NCBI GenBank assembly: GCA_014378495.1
Contig: JACMNP010000066.1
Location: forward strand, 1-32,473
DNA length: 32,473 bases
Source of the DNA: Methylotenera sp.
GTDB taxonomy: Bacteria > Pseudomonadota > Gammaproteobacteria > Burkholderiales > Methylophilaceae
Direction of reading: 5' to 3'
Positions 15,948 to 32,473 of the stretch are shown one piece after another. The notes below the pieces were generated by a model. That model ran no database searches. It was not told where the DNA came from and saw only the letters and a program-made list of their open reading frames with translations. Every line of letters begins with the position of its first letter. The first letter of the stretch is position 1. Both the position numbers and the translations under genes were made by a program.

Positions 15948-16670
15948 ATGAGCGAACTGGTTGTTGAAAATCTGCGTAAATCTTACAAAACCCGCACTGT
16001 GGTGCAGGATATTTCTTTACGCTTAAAAAGTGGTGAAGTTGTCGGGTTACTTGGCCCTAACGGTGCAGGGAAAACCACAAGCTTTTATATGATGGTCGGT
16101 TTAGTTGCGCTAGATGAAGGTAGAATTTTGCTCGATGGTAAAGATTTAAGCCATATGCCGATTCATATGCGCGCCAGAATGGGCTTATCTTACTTACCAC
16201 AAGAGCCTTCTATTTTTCGTAAATTATCAGTCGCTGAGAATATTCTTGCAGTCTTACAACTACAAGAAATGACCGAAACTGAAATGGATGAAAAATTAGA
16301 ATCCTTACTGGAAGAGCTACATATTACGCATATTCGCGATAATGCCGCAGTCAGCTTGTCTGGTGGTGAACGCCGTCGCGTAGAAATTGCACGTTGTCTA
16401 GCCTCTAATCCTAGCTTTATTTTATTAGATGAACCATTTGCGGGTATCGACCCGATTGCAGTCATTGATATTCAAAAAATTATTCGTTTTTTAAGTGCGC
16501 GTGATATAGGTGTATTGATTACCGACCATAATGTACGTGAAACTTTGGGGATCTGTGACCGTGCATATATTGTGAATCAAGGCCATGTATTTGCTTCAGG
16601 TATTCCCAGTGAAATTGTAGAAAATGAAAGCGTACGCGAAGTTTATTTGGGTAAAGATTTTCGCCTATGA
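15948..16670 (+). CDS. lptB: LPS export ABC transporter ATPase LptB
   Basis: [73 protein letters not shown]. Confidence 0.97.
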
Positions 16671-18268
16671 AACAAGGAATGCAACTTAGGTTCTCGCAGA
16701 ACCTATCACTGACACCACAATTGCAGCAGGCTATCCGCTTGTTGCAGTTATCAACGCTTGAGCTTAATCAAGAAATTGATGTATTGATGCAAACCAACCC
16801 TTTGCTTGAAAGAGGCGAAGCTGGCGAAGATGAGTATGGCAATTTAGCAGATGATGGCGCAGACCAAGTGGCTGCTCATGAAAAAACGAATGAAGCCTTA
16901 CATGAGGATGTGCAAAAAAATGGCCAAGATGCCACGCCGGATTACGCAAAAGATACAGAAAATTTTAATACTGATTTTTCTGAGCGTGGTGTAGAGTCCA
17001 GTCAAATTGACGCGAATAAAGTTGAGTCTAGCGAACCTGCAGATTTTGATATAGGTGCGAGTGCTACAGACTTTTCGTCAGAATTTAGTGATGAGTTTGA
17101 TGAGTTTTCAAATGGTAGCCGTTGGGATGAAAACAGTACGCCAGCCGATGATGATAGCGACTTTAAACAACAAGAGACTTTGCAGGTTAGCTTGCGAGAA
17201 CACCTGCTTTCTCAGCTTAAATTAATGCCACTGTCTGAACGTGATCAAACACTTACACTGTTGCTGGTAGATAGCATTAATGAAGATGGTTACCTAGAAG
17301 AATCGCTGGAAGAAATTGCTGACAACATGCCGCTAGAGCTAGAAATAGAAGTTTTAGAATTGCAAACTGCATTGCGGCACATACAAAATCTAGACCCTGC
17401 TGGCGTTGGCGCACGTGGCTTGAGCGAATGCCTACTTTTACAATTAAGTTTATTGCCGATAGATACACCGCATTTATCGCTCGCCAGTGTAGTCACAAAA
17501 AGTCATTTGCCTGCATTAGGCGCCAGAGACTTTACCAAACTGCGTAAAGAACTTAGCTGTGATGAAGCTACGCTAAAAAACGTGCAGCAATTAATTACCA
17601 GTTTGAATCCTCGACCAGGTAGTGCATTCAGTATTATTGGTTCCGAACATTATATTCAGCATGAAGTGATTGTAAAAAAAGTAAAAGGCATTTGGATTGC
17701 AAGCCTCAATGATGGCGTGATTCCTAAGCTTAAAATCAACCAACTTTACGCAAGTATATTAAAACGTAATCGCGACAGCTCTAGCCAATACCTACAAAGC
17801 CAAATGCAAGAAGCGAAGTGGATGATTAAAAATATTCAGCAGCGTTTTTCTACCATCTTGCGCGTATCGCAAGCAATTGTTGATCGCCAGCGTAATTTTT
17901 TAGAATATGGCGAAGTAGCGATGCGCCCATTAGTGTTACGAGAAATTGCTGATGAGTTAGAGTTACATGAATCGACCATTTCACGGGTGACTACAAGTAA
18001 GTACATGCTCACTCCGCGTGGTATTTTTGAGCTTAAATACTTCTTTGGAAGTTCAGTGGCAACGGATACTGGCGGCACTTGCTCAGCCACGGCTATTCGT
18101 GCACTAATTAAGCAATTGGTAGAAGAAGAAAATCCGAAAAAGCCATATTCAGATAATCAAATTACAGATTTATTGGCGAAGCAAGGTATTGTAGTTGCAC
18201 GCCGCACTATTGCTAAATATCGCGAATCATTGAGCATTGCGCCTGCTAGTTTGAGAAAGACGCTCTAG
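16667..18268 (+). CDS. rpoN: RNA polymerase sigma-54 factor RpoN
   Basis: N-terminal [30 protein letters not shown]; RpoN box [16 protein letters not shown] overlap with lptB. Confidence 0.97.
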
Positions 18269-26944: not shown

Positions 26945-28348
26945 TCAACCTTTAATCTTAATACCTAGCTGTTTGAGTTTACGGTATAAATGCGTACGTT
27001 CTAATCCTGCAATCTCAGCAAGTTTACTCATATTATTGGTTACATCTTTTAAGTGGTGTGCAAAATAAAGCCGCTCAAAATCGTCACGTGCCTCGCGCAG
27101 CGGTTGGTTTAACTTAATATCTAATTGTGGTACCTGACCGTTATGTGGATGCTGGCCATTGAGTGCATTTGTGCTTGAACCTAAATACGCGTTTTCTGAA
27201 TGCCATTCAGCTGAAGCGTTTTGCACAACACTCCCCTGCTTTTGATAGGAATTGCCTTGCTGAGTATTATCAATAGAAGCATCGTCGAATTGATGCATGA
27301 TGCGATTCACATCATCTAGCGTGATTTTTTCACCCAGACTCGTTTGTATCAAATTGCGAATCACAGCATCTAACTGTGCCAAATCACCAGGCCAATTTGC
27401 ATTACGCAGACCATTTAAAGCGGCAATATCAAACTCACGATATTCAATACCAGCCAGCTCTAACTGCAAATTAGCAATCGCAACGGCTAAATCAGGAATG
27501 TCTTCTTTATGCTCATCTAAAGCAGGAACCCGCAGCGACACAGCAGATAAAGCTTGCAATAAGTTATGATCAAACAAGCCTTCTGCCTGCAGTTTTGGCA
27601 AATTCTCGCTGGTGCTACACACCACGCGCACATTGTATTTATCTGATTTTGTGATCAGTAACAACAAGCCTTTTTGCTCAGTTTTGCTTAAATCGGCAAT
27701 CTCAGTAATATATAGCACACCATCACGGATAGTTTCCAAAATATCTAAGGGTGCACTTGCTAATTGCCCAAACTCTGTGAGTTGTAGCCAAGGTGTATTT
27801 TGACTTTGTAAATAACGCGCGCATAGTTCTGCACCACAACCTTTGGGTCCTATCAATAATACTGGCCCAGGGCTAATACTAGAGCTGCCAGCAATTTTAT
27901 CTAAGCGATCTTTTAGCGCCACCACAATTGGGCTTTTACCTAAATTCACTAATGTCATTTCAGACTTTGGTAATTGCTCACCATGCTTTAAGGCTGCCCC
28001 TACAGTTTTTAAGAGCTTTTGTAGGGCGATTGGTTTTTCTAAAAAGTCAAAAGCACCGATTCGTGTCGCTTCAACCGCGGTATCAATCGTGCCATGGCCA
28101 GACATCATCACTACCGGCATCGTCAATAATGCATTATTCGCCCACTCTTTAAGCAAACTGATACCGTCACAATCCGGCATCCAAATATCTAGCAATACAA
28201 CATCTGGCCGCTCATGCAAACGAGCAGCCCTCGCAGCAGCAGCATTTTCAGCTAATTGAACGCTATAGCCTTCATCTTGTAAAATATCGCGCAATAATTC
28301 ACGAATGCCGATTTCATCATCTACCACTAATATATGTTTTGATGCCAT
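26945..28348 (-). CDS. NtrX-like response regulator with degenerate AAA+ domain and Fis-type HTH
   Basis: REC domain (VVDDEIGIRELLRDIL, VVLLDIWMPDCDG); RVPALDEHKEDIPDLA and NWPGDLAQLD relics of the sigma-54 activator domain; C-terminal Fis HTH; adjacent to NtrY. Confidence 0.88.
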   Translation of the reverse strand: MASKHILVVDDEIGIRELLRDILQDEGYSVQLAENAAAARAARLHERPDVVLLDIWMPDCDGISLLKEWANNALLTMPVVMMSGHGTIDTAVEATRIGAFDFLEKPIALQKLLKTVGAALKHGEQLPKSEMTLVNLGKSPIVVALKDRLDKIAGSSSISPGPVLLIGPKGCGAELCARYLQSQNTPWLQLTEFGQLASAPLDILETIRDGVLYITEIADLSKTEQKGLLLLITKSDKYNVRVVCSTSENLPKLQAEGLFDHNLLQALSAVSLRVPALDEHKEDIPDLAVAIANLQLELAGIEYREFDIAALNGLRNANWPGDLAQLDAVIRNLIQTSLGEKITLDDVNRIMHQFDDASIDNTQQGNSYQKQGSVVQNASAEWHSENAYLGSSTNALNGQHPHNGQVPQLDIKLNQPLREARDDFERLYFAHHLKDVTNNMSKLAEIAGLERTHLYRKLKQLGIKIKG

Positions 28349-28395: not shown

Positions 28396-30570
28396 TTATT
28401 TTACAAGCGGAATACTAATGGTTACAACTGCGCCTGATTTTTTTAAATCTGATGCTTTTATATTTAAATTATCGCCCGTTATATTTTCAATTTTAATACT
28501 ACCTTTATGTTCTTCAATAATTTTTTTAACAATGGCTAAACCTAAGCCAGTACCATGTGACTTAGTCGTCATATATGGCTCAAAAGCGTGTGGCATCATC
28601 TCAGTAGGAAAACCTGCTCCATTATCTTCTACTGATAATACTAACATGTCGTTGACTACTTCAGTTTTCACTATAATTTTGGGGGCAGCATGGGTTGTAA
28701 GGGCATCTTGGGCATTCTGTAATAGATTATGTAACACTTGGCGCAGCATAGTCCCGTCACCTTTAATGCTGCAATCTCGCTTTTCTAAATCAAGTTTAAT
28801 TTTAGAACCATTTGCTTGAGTGCCAAGTAAATCATACAGTGATACCACTTCACTAATTAGTTTGTTTAAATCCAAACGTTCTAATTGCGGTGTAGGTGAG
28901 CGCGCATATTCACTAAATTCATTGACCATTGTTTTCATGGCGTGCACTTGATTCACAATTGTTTGAGTAGAACGTTTAAGCATCTCTGCATCGGTATCAT
29001 CTAATTTACTGTGTAATTTATGTGCCATTCGCTCGGCCGAAAGCTGTATTGGCGTGAGTGGATTTTTAATCTCGTGCGCTAGTCTTCTTGCGACCTCTCC
29101 CCAAGCTGCATCACGCTGTGCTTGTATCATCGTGGTTGCATCATCAAACACTGCGACATATCCACCATCTGGCAAACGCGTGCCACGTAAAGTTAAAATC
29201 TGTTTGCCTTGAGCACTCGCTAACTCGATTTGAGTTTGTATTTCATCTTTTTGTGTGGCCGCTTGTGCGTCATCTTGTTCTGTATGTGCAGCAATCGCGT
29301 TCAAAAAACTTTCTAATCGCGTTTGTTTAACAGTAATTTTATCTAAGGTTAACCCAACATAGCTCTCTAAATTAATACCCAAAATATTAGAAGCAGCTTG
29401 GTTGAATGTACGCAACTCTCCCCGCTCATTTAGCGCCAATACGCCCGAAGACAAATGTGCCAGTATCGTCTCTAAATAACCCCGTGCGGCTTCAACCCGC
29501 GCACGATTTCTATCTGCAGCCTTAGTAGCATCACCTAGCTGTTGCGTCATGCTATTAAAAGACTGTACTAATACGCCTAGCTCATCCTTTCCATGAGCAG
29601 GCAACATGGTGCTGTAATCACCGCTGGCAATCGCCTTAGTACCTTCGGCCAACACAGTTAGTGGTGCAGATAATCTGCGACTCAATACAAAAGCAATCGC
29701 CACCGCAGTGAGCATCGCCAACATCATGACTAACGTTAATGTAAGCGCAAACACCTCTCTTAGTGAAGTGCGACTGTAAGAAAGCTGCTGATAATCCTGA
29801 TAGACATCCTGTACTGCTTCAGCCGTAGTCGCGAGTGATTTTGGTACAGGTTGTAATAATTGTAAAATACGGACTTCACCCGTTAAATCTTGCACATTGA
29901 CTGGTGCCAACACGCGTAAATAAAGCCCTTTTTTGCCAATCGGCTCAATACTGCTATAAATACGTTGTCGTGCTTGTCTGAGTTGCGCCACACTAGGTAA
30001 CTCAGGTAAAAAACTAGTTGAATCACTACTAGAGACTGCTAAAATTCTACCTTGTACTGTGAGTAACGCTGCTTCCTGAATGCCACTTTTTTCGCGCAAA
30101 TCATTCAGCATAGAAAAATGCGTGTTCGCTGGCTGAAAAGCCAAACTAGTCGCCATACTTTCGCCTTTTTCCTTAACGTCAGCCAACATAATATCGAGTG
30201 CAGTACGGCCTAGATTAAGACCGCCTTCTAACGCTGCTTCTACTTTAACATTAAACCAAGATTCAATAGACCGCGTTAAAAAATTGACTGATACCAGATA
30301 TACGATTAAACCTGGAATAATGGCCATCAATACAAAAGTAGCAAGTAATCTTAAAGTAAAGCGACTACCTACTACGCGCGCACGGATTTTGCGATATAAC
30401 CCAAAAAGTTGCACACCAATCAGTACAATCAGAAAGACTGCCAATGCAATATTCAGTGCCACTAGCAAAGTGTAATATTCGCCAGAAGCCGCAGTATTAG
30501 CACTAGCATTAGAAAGTAAGTAGAGTAAAATTGCGCCTAATGTAGCGCTAGTGAAAACGATATATTTCAT
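28396..30570 (-). CDS. ntrY: NtrY-like sensor histidine kinase
   Basis: N-terminal TMs, HAMP, PAS, H-box RRLAHEIKNPLTPIQLSAERM, N/G boxes LLQNAQDAL, DNGAGFP, GTGLGLAIVKKIIEEH. Confidence 0.92.
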   Translation of the reverse strand: MKYIVFTSATLGAILLYLLSNASANTAASGEYYTLLVALNIALAVFLIVLIGVQLFGLYRKIRARVVGSRFTLRLLATFVLMAIIPGLIVYLVSVNFLTRSIESWFNVKVEAALEGGLNLGRTALDIMLADVKEKGESMATSLAFQPANTHFSMLNDLREKSGIQEAALLTVQGRILAVSSSDSTSFLPELPSVAQLRQARQRIYSSIEPIGKKGLYLRVLAPVNVQDLTGEVRILQLLQPVPKSLATTAEAVQDVYQDYQQLSYSRTSLREVFALTLTLVMMLAMLTAVAIAFVLSRRLSAPLTVLAEGTKAIASGDYSTMLPAHGKDELGVLVQSFNSMTQQLGDATKAADRNRARVEAARGYLETILAHLSSGVLALNERGELRTFNQAASNILGINLESYVGLTLDKITVKQTRLESFLNAIAAHTEQDDAQAATQKDEIQTQIELASAQGKQILTLRGTRLPDGGYVAVFDDATTMIQAQRDAAWGEVARRLAHEIKNPLTPIQLSAERMAHKLHSKLDDTDAEMLKRSTQTIVNQVHAMKTMVNEFSEYARSPTPQLERLDLNKLISEVVSLYDLLGTQANGSKIKLDLEKRDCSIKGDGTMLRQVLHNLLQNAQDALTTHAAPKIIVKTEVVNDMLVLSVEDNGAGFPTEMMPHAFEPYMTTKSHGTGLGLAIVKKIIEEHKGSIKIENITGDNLNIKASDLKKSGAVVTISIPLVK

Positions 30571-30601: not shown

Positions 30602-31198
30602 TCATTTAAATAGGTTGGGCGACCACTCAAAGCGTTGCGAGGTCATTTTCCAATCATCTGAGCCAATCGCATCTACTTGCAAAGCCTTAGGTAACTTGGT
30701 TTGGTCTAAACGCATGAGCAAAATGGCGTTATAAACTACTCCCTTTTCGACATCTGATTTTTGAAATACTTTAAAATCACTAATGTCTGACAGCGCATCA
30801 ATAGCATCATCTAAACTAGCAAACGTTTTTTGCTGATCGCCTCGCGTGAGTAAATACTGTCGTGAAAGCGGGTGATAGCTCAATGCGATACGGCGTGTAA
30901 CCGTCGCAATTTCATCATCAAACCAATACTTTCTCGGTTGAACTAGTTGAAACTCAATGATGAAATTGAGCACAAAACCCTTAACAATGGCTTGCTCTAT
31001 CTCTTCACTAAACTTAATCTCAACATCAGCATTAAGCACGTAGCTATCTTCTACCAGCTCTAGCTCAGCATTTTCAATATTCAACCCACTTCCATTGGCG
31101 ATAGCAACGTTGGCGACCATCGCCAACAAGCACGCAAAAAAACCAGTGAAAAGAGATTGTTTAATTTTTTTGCAATAATGCATAAAAGAAGCCGTCAT
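30602..31198 (-). CDS. DUF4390 domain exported protein
   Basis: signal peptide; RKYWFDDEIATVTRRIALSYHPLSRQYLLTRG; between ntrY and rsmB as in many betaproteobacteria; alternative start at 31183. Confidence 0.82.
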   Translation of the reverse strand: MTASFMHYCKKIKQSLFTGFFACLLAMVANVAIANGSGLNIENAELELVEDSYVLNADVEIKFSEEIEQAIVKGFVLNFIIEFQLVQPRKYWFDDEIATVTRRIALSYHPLSRQYLLTRGDQQKTFASLDDAIDALSDISDFKVFQKSDVEKGVVYNAILLMRLDQTKLPKALQVDAIGSDDWKMTSQRFEWSPNLFK

Positions 31199-32473
31199 GT
31201 GCGGTAGATGGAATCAGTTGGCCATTAATATGTGTCAGGTTCGGCTGCAATTGCGTCACCATTGACACATCAGTCAATAATTGAAAAGGCAGTTGTATTG
31301 CATCTGGATTATTTTGTAAAAATTTGTCCACTTGTCCTTGATTCTCTTCATAAAAAACTGAACATGTAACATAAAGTAATTTACCACCCTTTGCTAACAT
31401 CTGCCACAAACTGGGTAAAATTTTAGCTTGTTGGGCAACAAAAGAAGTAACATCAGCCTCGCGACGCAACCATTTGATATCTACGTGACGACGAACAATA
31501 CCAGAAGCTGTGCATGGCACATCTGCTAAAATTCTGTCAAAAGGCTCACCATTCCACCAACTGGTAGAAGAAGCATCGCCAACGATTAAGTTAGCCTGCA
31601 AATTTAATCGGTCTAAATTACTTTGCACACGTTGCAAACGCGTTTCATCACTATCAAGCGAAGTCATTGCCACATCTGACAACTCAAGAATATGTCCAGT
31701 TTTACCACCAGGCGCGCAACAAGCATCTAAGACGCTTATGCCTAGTTGTAAGTCTAATAAAGGCGCAGCTAGCTGGGCACCGTAATCTTGTACAGAAACA
31801 ATCCCATCCAGAAAACCTGGTATTTTTTCTACTGGTTGCGGTTTAGTTAAAATAACTGCTTGCGCGCCTATTTGCGTTGCTTCTATATCTTGACGCGCTA
31901 ATAATTGTAGATAATCCTGCATAGTGATTTTGAGTGTATTCACCCGCAAAGTCATCGGTGGATGTTGATTACCTGTTTGCAAGATACTTTGCCAATGATC
32001 TGGATACTGAATTTTTAGCTTATTAATCCACCACTGAGGGTAAGAGTAAGTCGCAACTTCACTGACACTCAACTGTTTAGCCAATTGGTCTTTTTGACGC
32101 AAAAAATTACGCAAAATCCCGTTAACCAAACCTTTAGCCCAAGCTTTTGGCGCCGGTCTTTTAAGCTGATTCACTGCGTGCACAGCTTGATTAACCACTG
32201 TAAAAGAATCCGCCTTATCATGCAATAACTGAAAAACTGCCACTAATAGCAATGCATGAATACGCTCATCCGTCAGCGGCTTTTCCATGAGTTGCGTAAG
32301 ATAAGCATCAATCTCGCCATAAAAGCGCAAGGTGCCATAACTTAAATCTGCCGCAGCACCTTTTTGTTGAGGTGTAGCATTAGGAAATAAAGACAATGCC
32401 GCAGGCAACGCCAAAGTAAGGTTACGACCAGAAAACACTTGATGCACAGCATCAGCGGCGATAAGTTGAGAGA
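31161..32473 (-). CDS. rsmB: 16S rRNA (cytosine-967-C5)-methyltransferase RsmB, truncated at window edge
   Basis: LDACCAPGGKTGHILEL; DRILADVPCTASGIVRRHVDIKWLRR; YVTCSVFYEENQGQ; the reading frame stays open upstream of the listed GTG start to the window end (SQLIAADAVHQVFSGRNLTLALP). Confidence 0.93.
   Translation of the reverse strand, partial: SQLIAADAVHQVFSGRNLTLALPAALSLFPNATPQQKGAAADLSYGTLRFYGEIDAYLTQLMEKPLTDERIHALLLVAVFQLLHDKADSFTVVNQAVHAVNQLKRPAPKAWAKGLVNGILRNFLRQKDQLAKQLSVSEVATYSYPQWWINKLKIQYPDHWQSILQTGNQHPPMTLRVNTLKITMQDYLQLLARQDIEATQIGAQAVILTKPQPVEKIPGFLDGIVSVQDYGAQLAAPLLDLQLGISVLDACCAPGGKTGHILELSDVAMTSLDSDETRLQRVQSNLDRLNLQANLIVGDASSTSWWNGEPFDRILADVPCTASGIVRRHVDIKWLRREADVTSFVAQQAKILPSLWQMLAKGGKLLYVTCSVFYEENQGQVDKFLQNNPDAIQLPFQLLTDVSMVTQLQPNLTHINGQLIPSTAHDGFFYALLQKN

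Follow-up and report, generated by a model that had tools for sequence, protein, structure and literature searches.

Erosion of the AAA+ domain in the NtrX response regulator of Methylotenera is shared across the sampled beta-proteobacteria

Introduction

The stretch of DNA analysed here (32,473 nucleotides from Methylotenera sp., contig JACMNP010000066.1), hereafter the window, contains an NtrX-like response regulator gene whose central AAA+ domain appears to have lost its catalytic residues, together with the gene for sigma54, rpoN. Is this loss real, is it peculiar to this protein, and what could such a regulator do? Part of the background is already known: NtrX proteins of beta-proteobacteria have been described as devoid of an AAA+ domain, the Pfam family PF14532 exists, the structure of a relative has been solved (PDB 3co5), and the loss of the GAFTGA motif in NtrX has been reported.

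Anatomy of the NtrX gene and its locus

The protein is the beta-proteobacterial NtrX, called PlrR in Bordetella, that is, the regulator of the rsmB-plrP-ntrY-ntrX locus. The gene, its domains and its neighbours are located as follows.

26945..28348, minus strand: ntrX-type response regulator gene, 467 aa, beta-proteobacterial NtrX/PlrR clade (ORF, Pfam, orthologues)
27983..28348, minus strand: receiver domain, residues 1-122, phosphoacceptor D54 (PF00072, 102.6 bits)
27518..27943, minus strand: eroded AAA+ core, residues 136-277, PF14532 Sigma54_activ_2 (157.7 bits; AlphaFold2 pLDDT about 83-98)
27827..27850, minus strand: Walker A position GPKGCGAE, residues 167-174, with Ala in place of Lys (alignment and residue census)
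27698..27724, minus strand: Walker B position DGVLYITEI, residues 209-217, with Thr in place of Asp (alignment and residue census)
27545..27574, minus strand: arginine-finger region FDHNLLQALS, residues 259-268, with Asp in place of the first Arg (alignment and residue census)
27278..27514, minus strand: AAA+ lid, residues 279-357 (PF25601, 31 bits)
27368..27397, minus strand: sensor II position NWPGDLAQLD, residues 318-327, Arg lost (alignment and residue census)
27134..27259, minus strand: disordered linker, residues 364-405 (pLDDT below 50; alignment)
26966..27082, minus strand: Fis-type HTH, residues 423-461 (PF02954, 19.3 bits; ERTHLYRK core)
28396..30570, minus strand: ntrY/plrS sensor histidine kinase, 724 aa (Pfam HATPase_c, HisKA, HAMP, PAS, NtrY_N)
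30602..31198, minus strand: plrP homologue, DUF4390 protein (PF14334, 175.7 bits)
31161..32447, minus strand: rsmB 16S rRNA methyltransferase (profile matches)
16667..18268, plus strand: rpoN, intact (profile match)

The ntrX reading frame runs through 467 codons without interruption. The central domain matches PF14532 over the whole profile (positions 1-138 of 138), above the curated Pfam cut-off of 25 bits, and the NtrX equivalog NF051870 is the top model among those of NCBIfam, although its 250.9 bits are far under the curated cut-off of 600. The four degenerate motifs quoted in the original prediction are all present between 27300 and 27960. The Walker A Lys, the Walker B Asp, both arginine fingers and the sensor II Arg are missing, and the alignment shows that the 18-residue segment of the GAFTGA loop is deleted. 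The segment between Walker A and Walker B is indeed shorter, as had been noticed, with an alignment spacing of 35 residues vs 53 in nearly all gamma-proteobacterial NtrX. The marks of a sigma54 enhancer-binding protein (GAFTGA, the Walker A Lys and Walker B Asp, the arginine fingers and the sensor II Arg) are therefore absent from this protein. In contrast, the phosphoacceptor network and the Fis-type HTH with its ERTHLYRK core are intact. The receiver and the HTH, described as intact, are recovered too, and so is the lid; the HTH scores marginally below its Pfam cut-off (19.3 vs 22 bits), with HTH_8 matched in 41 of 42 relatives. The linker between the lid and the HTH (27134-27259) is predicted to be disordered and exceeds the length found in the relatives aligned.

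Upstream of ntrX and on the same strand lie ntrY, the DUF4390 gene and rsmB, which form the conserved rsmB-plrP(DUF4390)-ntrY-ntrX cluster. The same order is known from NtrYX systems of both beta- and gamma-proteobacteria, among them Bordetella PlrSR, of which PlrP is the proposed third component (PMC13001219). With this gene cluster, its receiver residues, its HTH core and its eroded AAA+ domain, the window NtrX shows the features of the beta NtrX/PlrR clade.

The rpoN gene is intact, as originally stated. Its presence is no paradox, because the same genome encodes two further sigma54-type regulators, one PilR-like with an upstream histidine kinase and one other response regulator, both carrying GAFTGA and the Walker A motif GESGSGKE. 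Nor can the erosion of the AAA+ domain be attributed to a loss of sigma54, since 141 of the 150 genomes examined in the order carry rpoN, as does the window. The vicinity of rpoN and the Pfam family name, Sigma-54 interaction domain, could suggest that NtrX is itself a functional sigma54 enhancer-binding protein whose catalytic residues are displaced or atypical. We consider this highly improbable: a GAFTGA-like segment is absent, 18 residues are deleted at the position of the loop, and the Walker A Lys, the Walker B Asp, the arginine fingers and sensor II have been lost together.

Distribution of the erosion among NtrX orthologues

Of 60 genomes of the family, 57 contain an NtrX orthologue, as do 233 of 250 from the order. 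The nearest named relatives of the window protein are from Methylotenera metagenome-assembled genomes (MAGs), and the single best match (80% identity) is from a proteobacterial MAG. The survey, built from genome searches and from tracing DUF4390 loci, gathered 161 distinct NtrX proteins: 94 from beta-proteobacteria with the domain, 46 from gamma-proteobacteria, and 21 from beta-proteobacteria without an AAA+ domain. The receiver residues D10, D11, D54, S83 and K105 are invariant in all 161, and the HTH core ERTHLYRK is present in 145 of them.

The active site of the AAA+ domain follows a different pattern. The Walker A Lys is kept in 1/94 domain-bearing beta sequences vs 40/46 gamma sequences, the Walker B Asp in 6/94 vs 17/46, and the sensor II Arg in 0/94 vs 35/46. 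The first arginine finger is Asp or Glu in 90/94 beta proteins and Arg in 36/46 gamma proteins. Two elements of the nucleotide site are better preserved, namely a Glu or Asp at Walker B, retained in 86/94 beta sequences, and the Walker A glycine G170, invariant in 42 orthologues. The only beta protein of the 94 that keeps the Walker A Lys (L202 from genome G281, GEPGAGKR) has lost its remaining active-site residues. Judging from these residues, nucleotide binding remains conceivable in beta NtrX, because L202 keeps this Lys and the Walker B acidic residue is so widely retained.

The ungapped 35-residue spacing and the identical lost residues recur in independent genomes, across most beta families. 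The erosion described in the original prediction is therefore real, and it is not peculiar to this protein: it is shared across the sampled beta-proteobacteria, and GAFTGA was already absent in the gamma NtrX sampled. A frameshift or a sequencing or assembly error, which the fragmented assembly and the 79% completeness of the genome might have suggested as the source of the odd segment, is refuted, because the reading frame is continuous and independent genomes within the genus, the family and the order show these residues and this spacing again; we give this reading a practically negligible probability.

The sampled gamma NtrX are devoid of GAFTGA, and their segment reads ELFGSEEGE-like, so the loss of this motif is older than the 18-residue deletion. 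Caulobacter NtrX has likewise been reported to be devoid of GAFTGA (PMC10274813). At the other extreme, eight of the 21 domain-less beta NtrX were scanned with Pfam. All eight matched the receiver and HTH_8 models, in one case with HTH_8 under the Pfam cut-off, and none matched an AAA model. The shortest beta forms consist of a receiver plus HTH_8 only; therefore, the NtrX family works without the ATPase.

Two further observations concern unusual sequences. In L267 (G056), from a 1.3 Mb genome of the same family, the AAA+ remnant has drifted strongly, with TIYTDAVY at the Walker A position, and the receiver residues and HTH core are retained despite this drift; in three of the four genomes of its genus, no NtrX match was found at 1e-40. 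Among gamma-proteobacteria, L243, L248, L251 and L268 have shortened AAA+ cores with 37-39 residues between Walker A and Walker B, and two of them retain the Walker A Lys. These four proteins sit on separate branches of the NtrY tree described below, and their cores were shortened independently.

Evolutionary history

The history of the domain was reconstructed on a tree of 116 NtrY kinases; the partner protein was used so that the NtrX columns bearing the traits stay out of the inference. This was a quick reconstruction, in which SH-aLRT was the sole measure of support. Several of its gamma branches are long, and the details within the gamma-proteobacteria are therefore uncertain. The class labels for the short gamma forms (d_shortgamma) and for the degenerate 35-residue forms (D_degen35) were set by hand from the alignment.

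The beta sequences fall on one side of a single branch (SH-aLRT 100), and every one of them carries either an eroded AAA+ domain or none. Therefore, the erosion most simply predates the sampled beta-proteobacteria. A recent loss peculiar to the Methylotenera strain is ruled out by the same survey and tree. The complete disappearance of the domain within the beta-proteobacteria needs three changes, all three forced by well-supported branches, and thus occurred at least three times.

Fold and selection on the AAA+ remnant

The AlphaFold2 model of the window NtrX, computed with 42 orthologues, has a mean pLDDT of 85.1 and a pTM of 0.61, with the AAA+ core and lid mostly above 90 (about 95 for the AAA+/lid region). 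Its top fold match in the PDB is Brucella NtrX (5m7p, E 6.8e-29), followed by NtrC1 and other family members. The structural modelling suggested at the outset is thus consistent with a preserved AAA+ fold.

Over 13 close, domain-bearing beta pairs, hand-picked from a longer pair list, the pooled dN/dS reached 0.099 in the core and 0.082 in the lid, compared with 0.029 in the receiver and 0.030 in the HTH; an estimate over greedy pairs was discarded because these included distant, compositionally biased pairs, some of them domain-less. At equal receiver distance (about 0.3), the AAA core differs by 0.62 in beta vs 0.48 in gamma NtrX, while the HTH shows no excess in beta (0.36 vs 0.39). The greater divergence of the beta core, together with a dN/dS of about 0.10, indicates at the sequence level that the remnant is under purifying selection, with a constraint that is relaxed yet far from absent.

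These results bear on two other readings of the domain. The first is that it binds a nucleotide or a small molecule without hydrolysis, functioning as a ligand-gated pseudo-ATPase rather than as an inert spacer. The confidently predicted fold and the purifying selection would agree with this, as would the invariant G170, the mostly retained Walker B Glu/Asp, and the PDB titles of relatives, which include ATP- or ADP-bound NtrX (5m7n, 5m7p) and the c-di-GMP-binding VpsR. Nevertheless, the Walker A Lys and the sensor II Arg are gone almost everywhere in beta NtrX, the core has diverged more there than in gamma NtrX, and the domain was dropped outright several times, so that a ligand is not essential in general. 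We therefore regard ligand gating as possible but doubtful. The second reading is that the domain is a passive relic heading for loss, tolerated and without a role. The relaxation relative to gamma orthologues, the complete disappearance of the domain on at least three independent occasions in beta, with more shortened forms in gamma, and the strong drift in the small-genome relative L267 all point in this direction, and the need for fold stability alone could yield part of the signal seen in dN/dS, spacing and fold. Substitution rates far from neutral in both core and lid, a 35-residue spacing constant in most families and the high-confidence fold make this reading unlikely.

Comparison with known systems

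The closest known systems are the beta NtrX/PlrR proteins (Bordetella PlrSR, and NtrYX of Herbaspirillum and Neisseria), with which the window locus shares the rsmB-plrP-ntrY-ntrX order (PMC13001219) and the window protein the combination of a receiver and a Fis-type HTH, a canonical AAA+ ATPase being absent. In PMC13001219, which cites Bonato et al. (2016), beta NtrX are stated to lack the AAA+ domain; in contrast, the window NtrX and most of the sampled beta families keep an eroded one, and its complete loss is limited to some lineages.

The AAA+ part of a putative two-component response regulator, solved as PDB 3co5, aligns with the window NtrX over 93 residues without gaps. It is similarly eroded, with GEAGSPFE at the Walker A position and GGVLYVGDI at the Walker B position, but it is an isolated domain of a related protein, unlike the full-length window NtrX. 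We take 3co5 to come from the NtrX of Neisseria gonorrhoeae; to our knowledge, its function has not been the subject of a publication. Brucella NtrX (5m7n, 5m7o, 5m7p) is the best full-length match in both fold and sequence and is also devoid of GAFTGA. Unlike the window protein, it retains the Walker A Lys, the Walker B Asp, the Arg of the arginine finger and a full-length core, and was crystallised with ATP and ADP according to the PDB titles.

Members of the wider family without GAFTGA are known to act at sigma70 promoters (PMC10274813). In the NtrC proteins of Rhodobacter capsulatus and Caulobacter, a deletion in loop 1 removes GAFTGA, as in the window NtrX, and both are phosphorylation-dependent DNA-binding regulators of such promoters (PMC10274813). 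However, they retain more of the ATPase, and ATP binding has been reported to matter for R. capsulatus NtrC, whereas in the window NtrX the nucleotide site itself is eroded.

Proposed function and significance

Signal reception and DNA binding have kept their protein parts, whereas those that would remodel sigma54 are gone, which makes phosphorylation-controlled binding at main-sigma-factor promoters the most likely mode of action. Very probably, then, the window protein is a DNA-binding regulator that is controlled by phosphorylation and independent of sigma54, and its pseudo-AAA+ domain is structural; this is the best explanation of our observations. The original prediction of such a regulator, with an AAA+ fold but putatively no ATPase activity, fits the conservation of the receiver and HTH, the clade-wide loss of residues and the modelled fold. 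In the proposed mechanism, NtrY would set the phosphorylation of D54, and the periplasmic DUF4390 protein would probably modulate NtrY, by analogy with the proposal for Bordetella PlrP/PlrS. Phosphorylated NtrX would then bind DNA through its C-terminal Fis-type HTH and, once bound, could activate or repress promoters of the main sigma factor. The pseudo-AAA+ module, presumably unable to couple ATP hydrolysis to sigma54 remodelling, may be maintained by selection as a spacer or as a scaffold for dimers or oligomers. We infer, in this mechanism, the lack of ATPase activity and of sigma54 contact, the scaffold role, the sigma70-type promoters and the PlrP-like input.

A more speculative and distinctly improbable variant is that the AAA+ domain of beta NtrX was repurposed as a nucleotide-independent control module. 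The conserved acidic residue in place of the former arginine finger, D260 in the window protein, might then set the dimer state through a new intra- or intermolecular contact, and the domain-less lineages would have replaced this control in another way.

Reports of essentiality suggest that the NtrYX system matters. The ntrX gene of Azoarcus has been described as putatively essential (PMC9769520), that of Herbaspirillum is among the candidate essential genes (PMC5086560), and in Bordetella it is the phosphorylated form of PlrR that is reported as essential in vitro (PMC13001219).

The window NtrX is thus unexceptional within a family that has been described in part, and the finding extends to the whole family and is for the most part known already. 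The survey adds one point: the AAA+ domain is present but dead in most of the sampled beta families and was lost completely several times, which refines the statement that beta NtrX lack it. The orthologues form a graded series, from an intact AAA+ domain in gamma NtrX, through a folded, active-site-dead domain in most beta NtrX, to complete loss on at least three occasions, and sigma54 stays in nearly all of these genomes. Beta NtrX therefore offer a testable system for the passage from a motor-domain regulator to a plain DNA-binding response regulator. They also call for caution, as the Pfam name Sigma-54 interaction domain is unsafe for predicting sigma54 dependence.

Binding motif and mraZ leaders

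A regulon was sought with the proposed NtrX motif GCAN9TGC (PMC7240162). The motif is not enriched in the window (17 occurrences vs 18.4 expected). Upstream of mraZ in Methylophilaceae it occurs in 5 of 24 genes, more than in plain shuffles (mean 0.8), but at scattered positions, and no conserved site was found there. Without enrichment in the window or a conserved mraZ site, a regulon defined by this motif was rejected.

The upstream regions of these mraZ genes (L350-L379) share other features. After a conserved promoter-like CTTGC...TATAGT come GTGG repeats, and many genomes then have a hairpin whose stem measures about 15 bp and whose loop region reads CTAAGGG or CTCATCTCC. No Rfam match to this leader hairpin was found in the five loci searched; in three examples, the hairpin folds stably.
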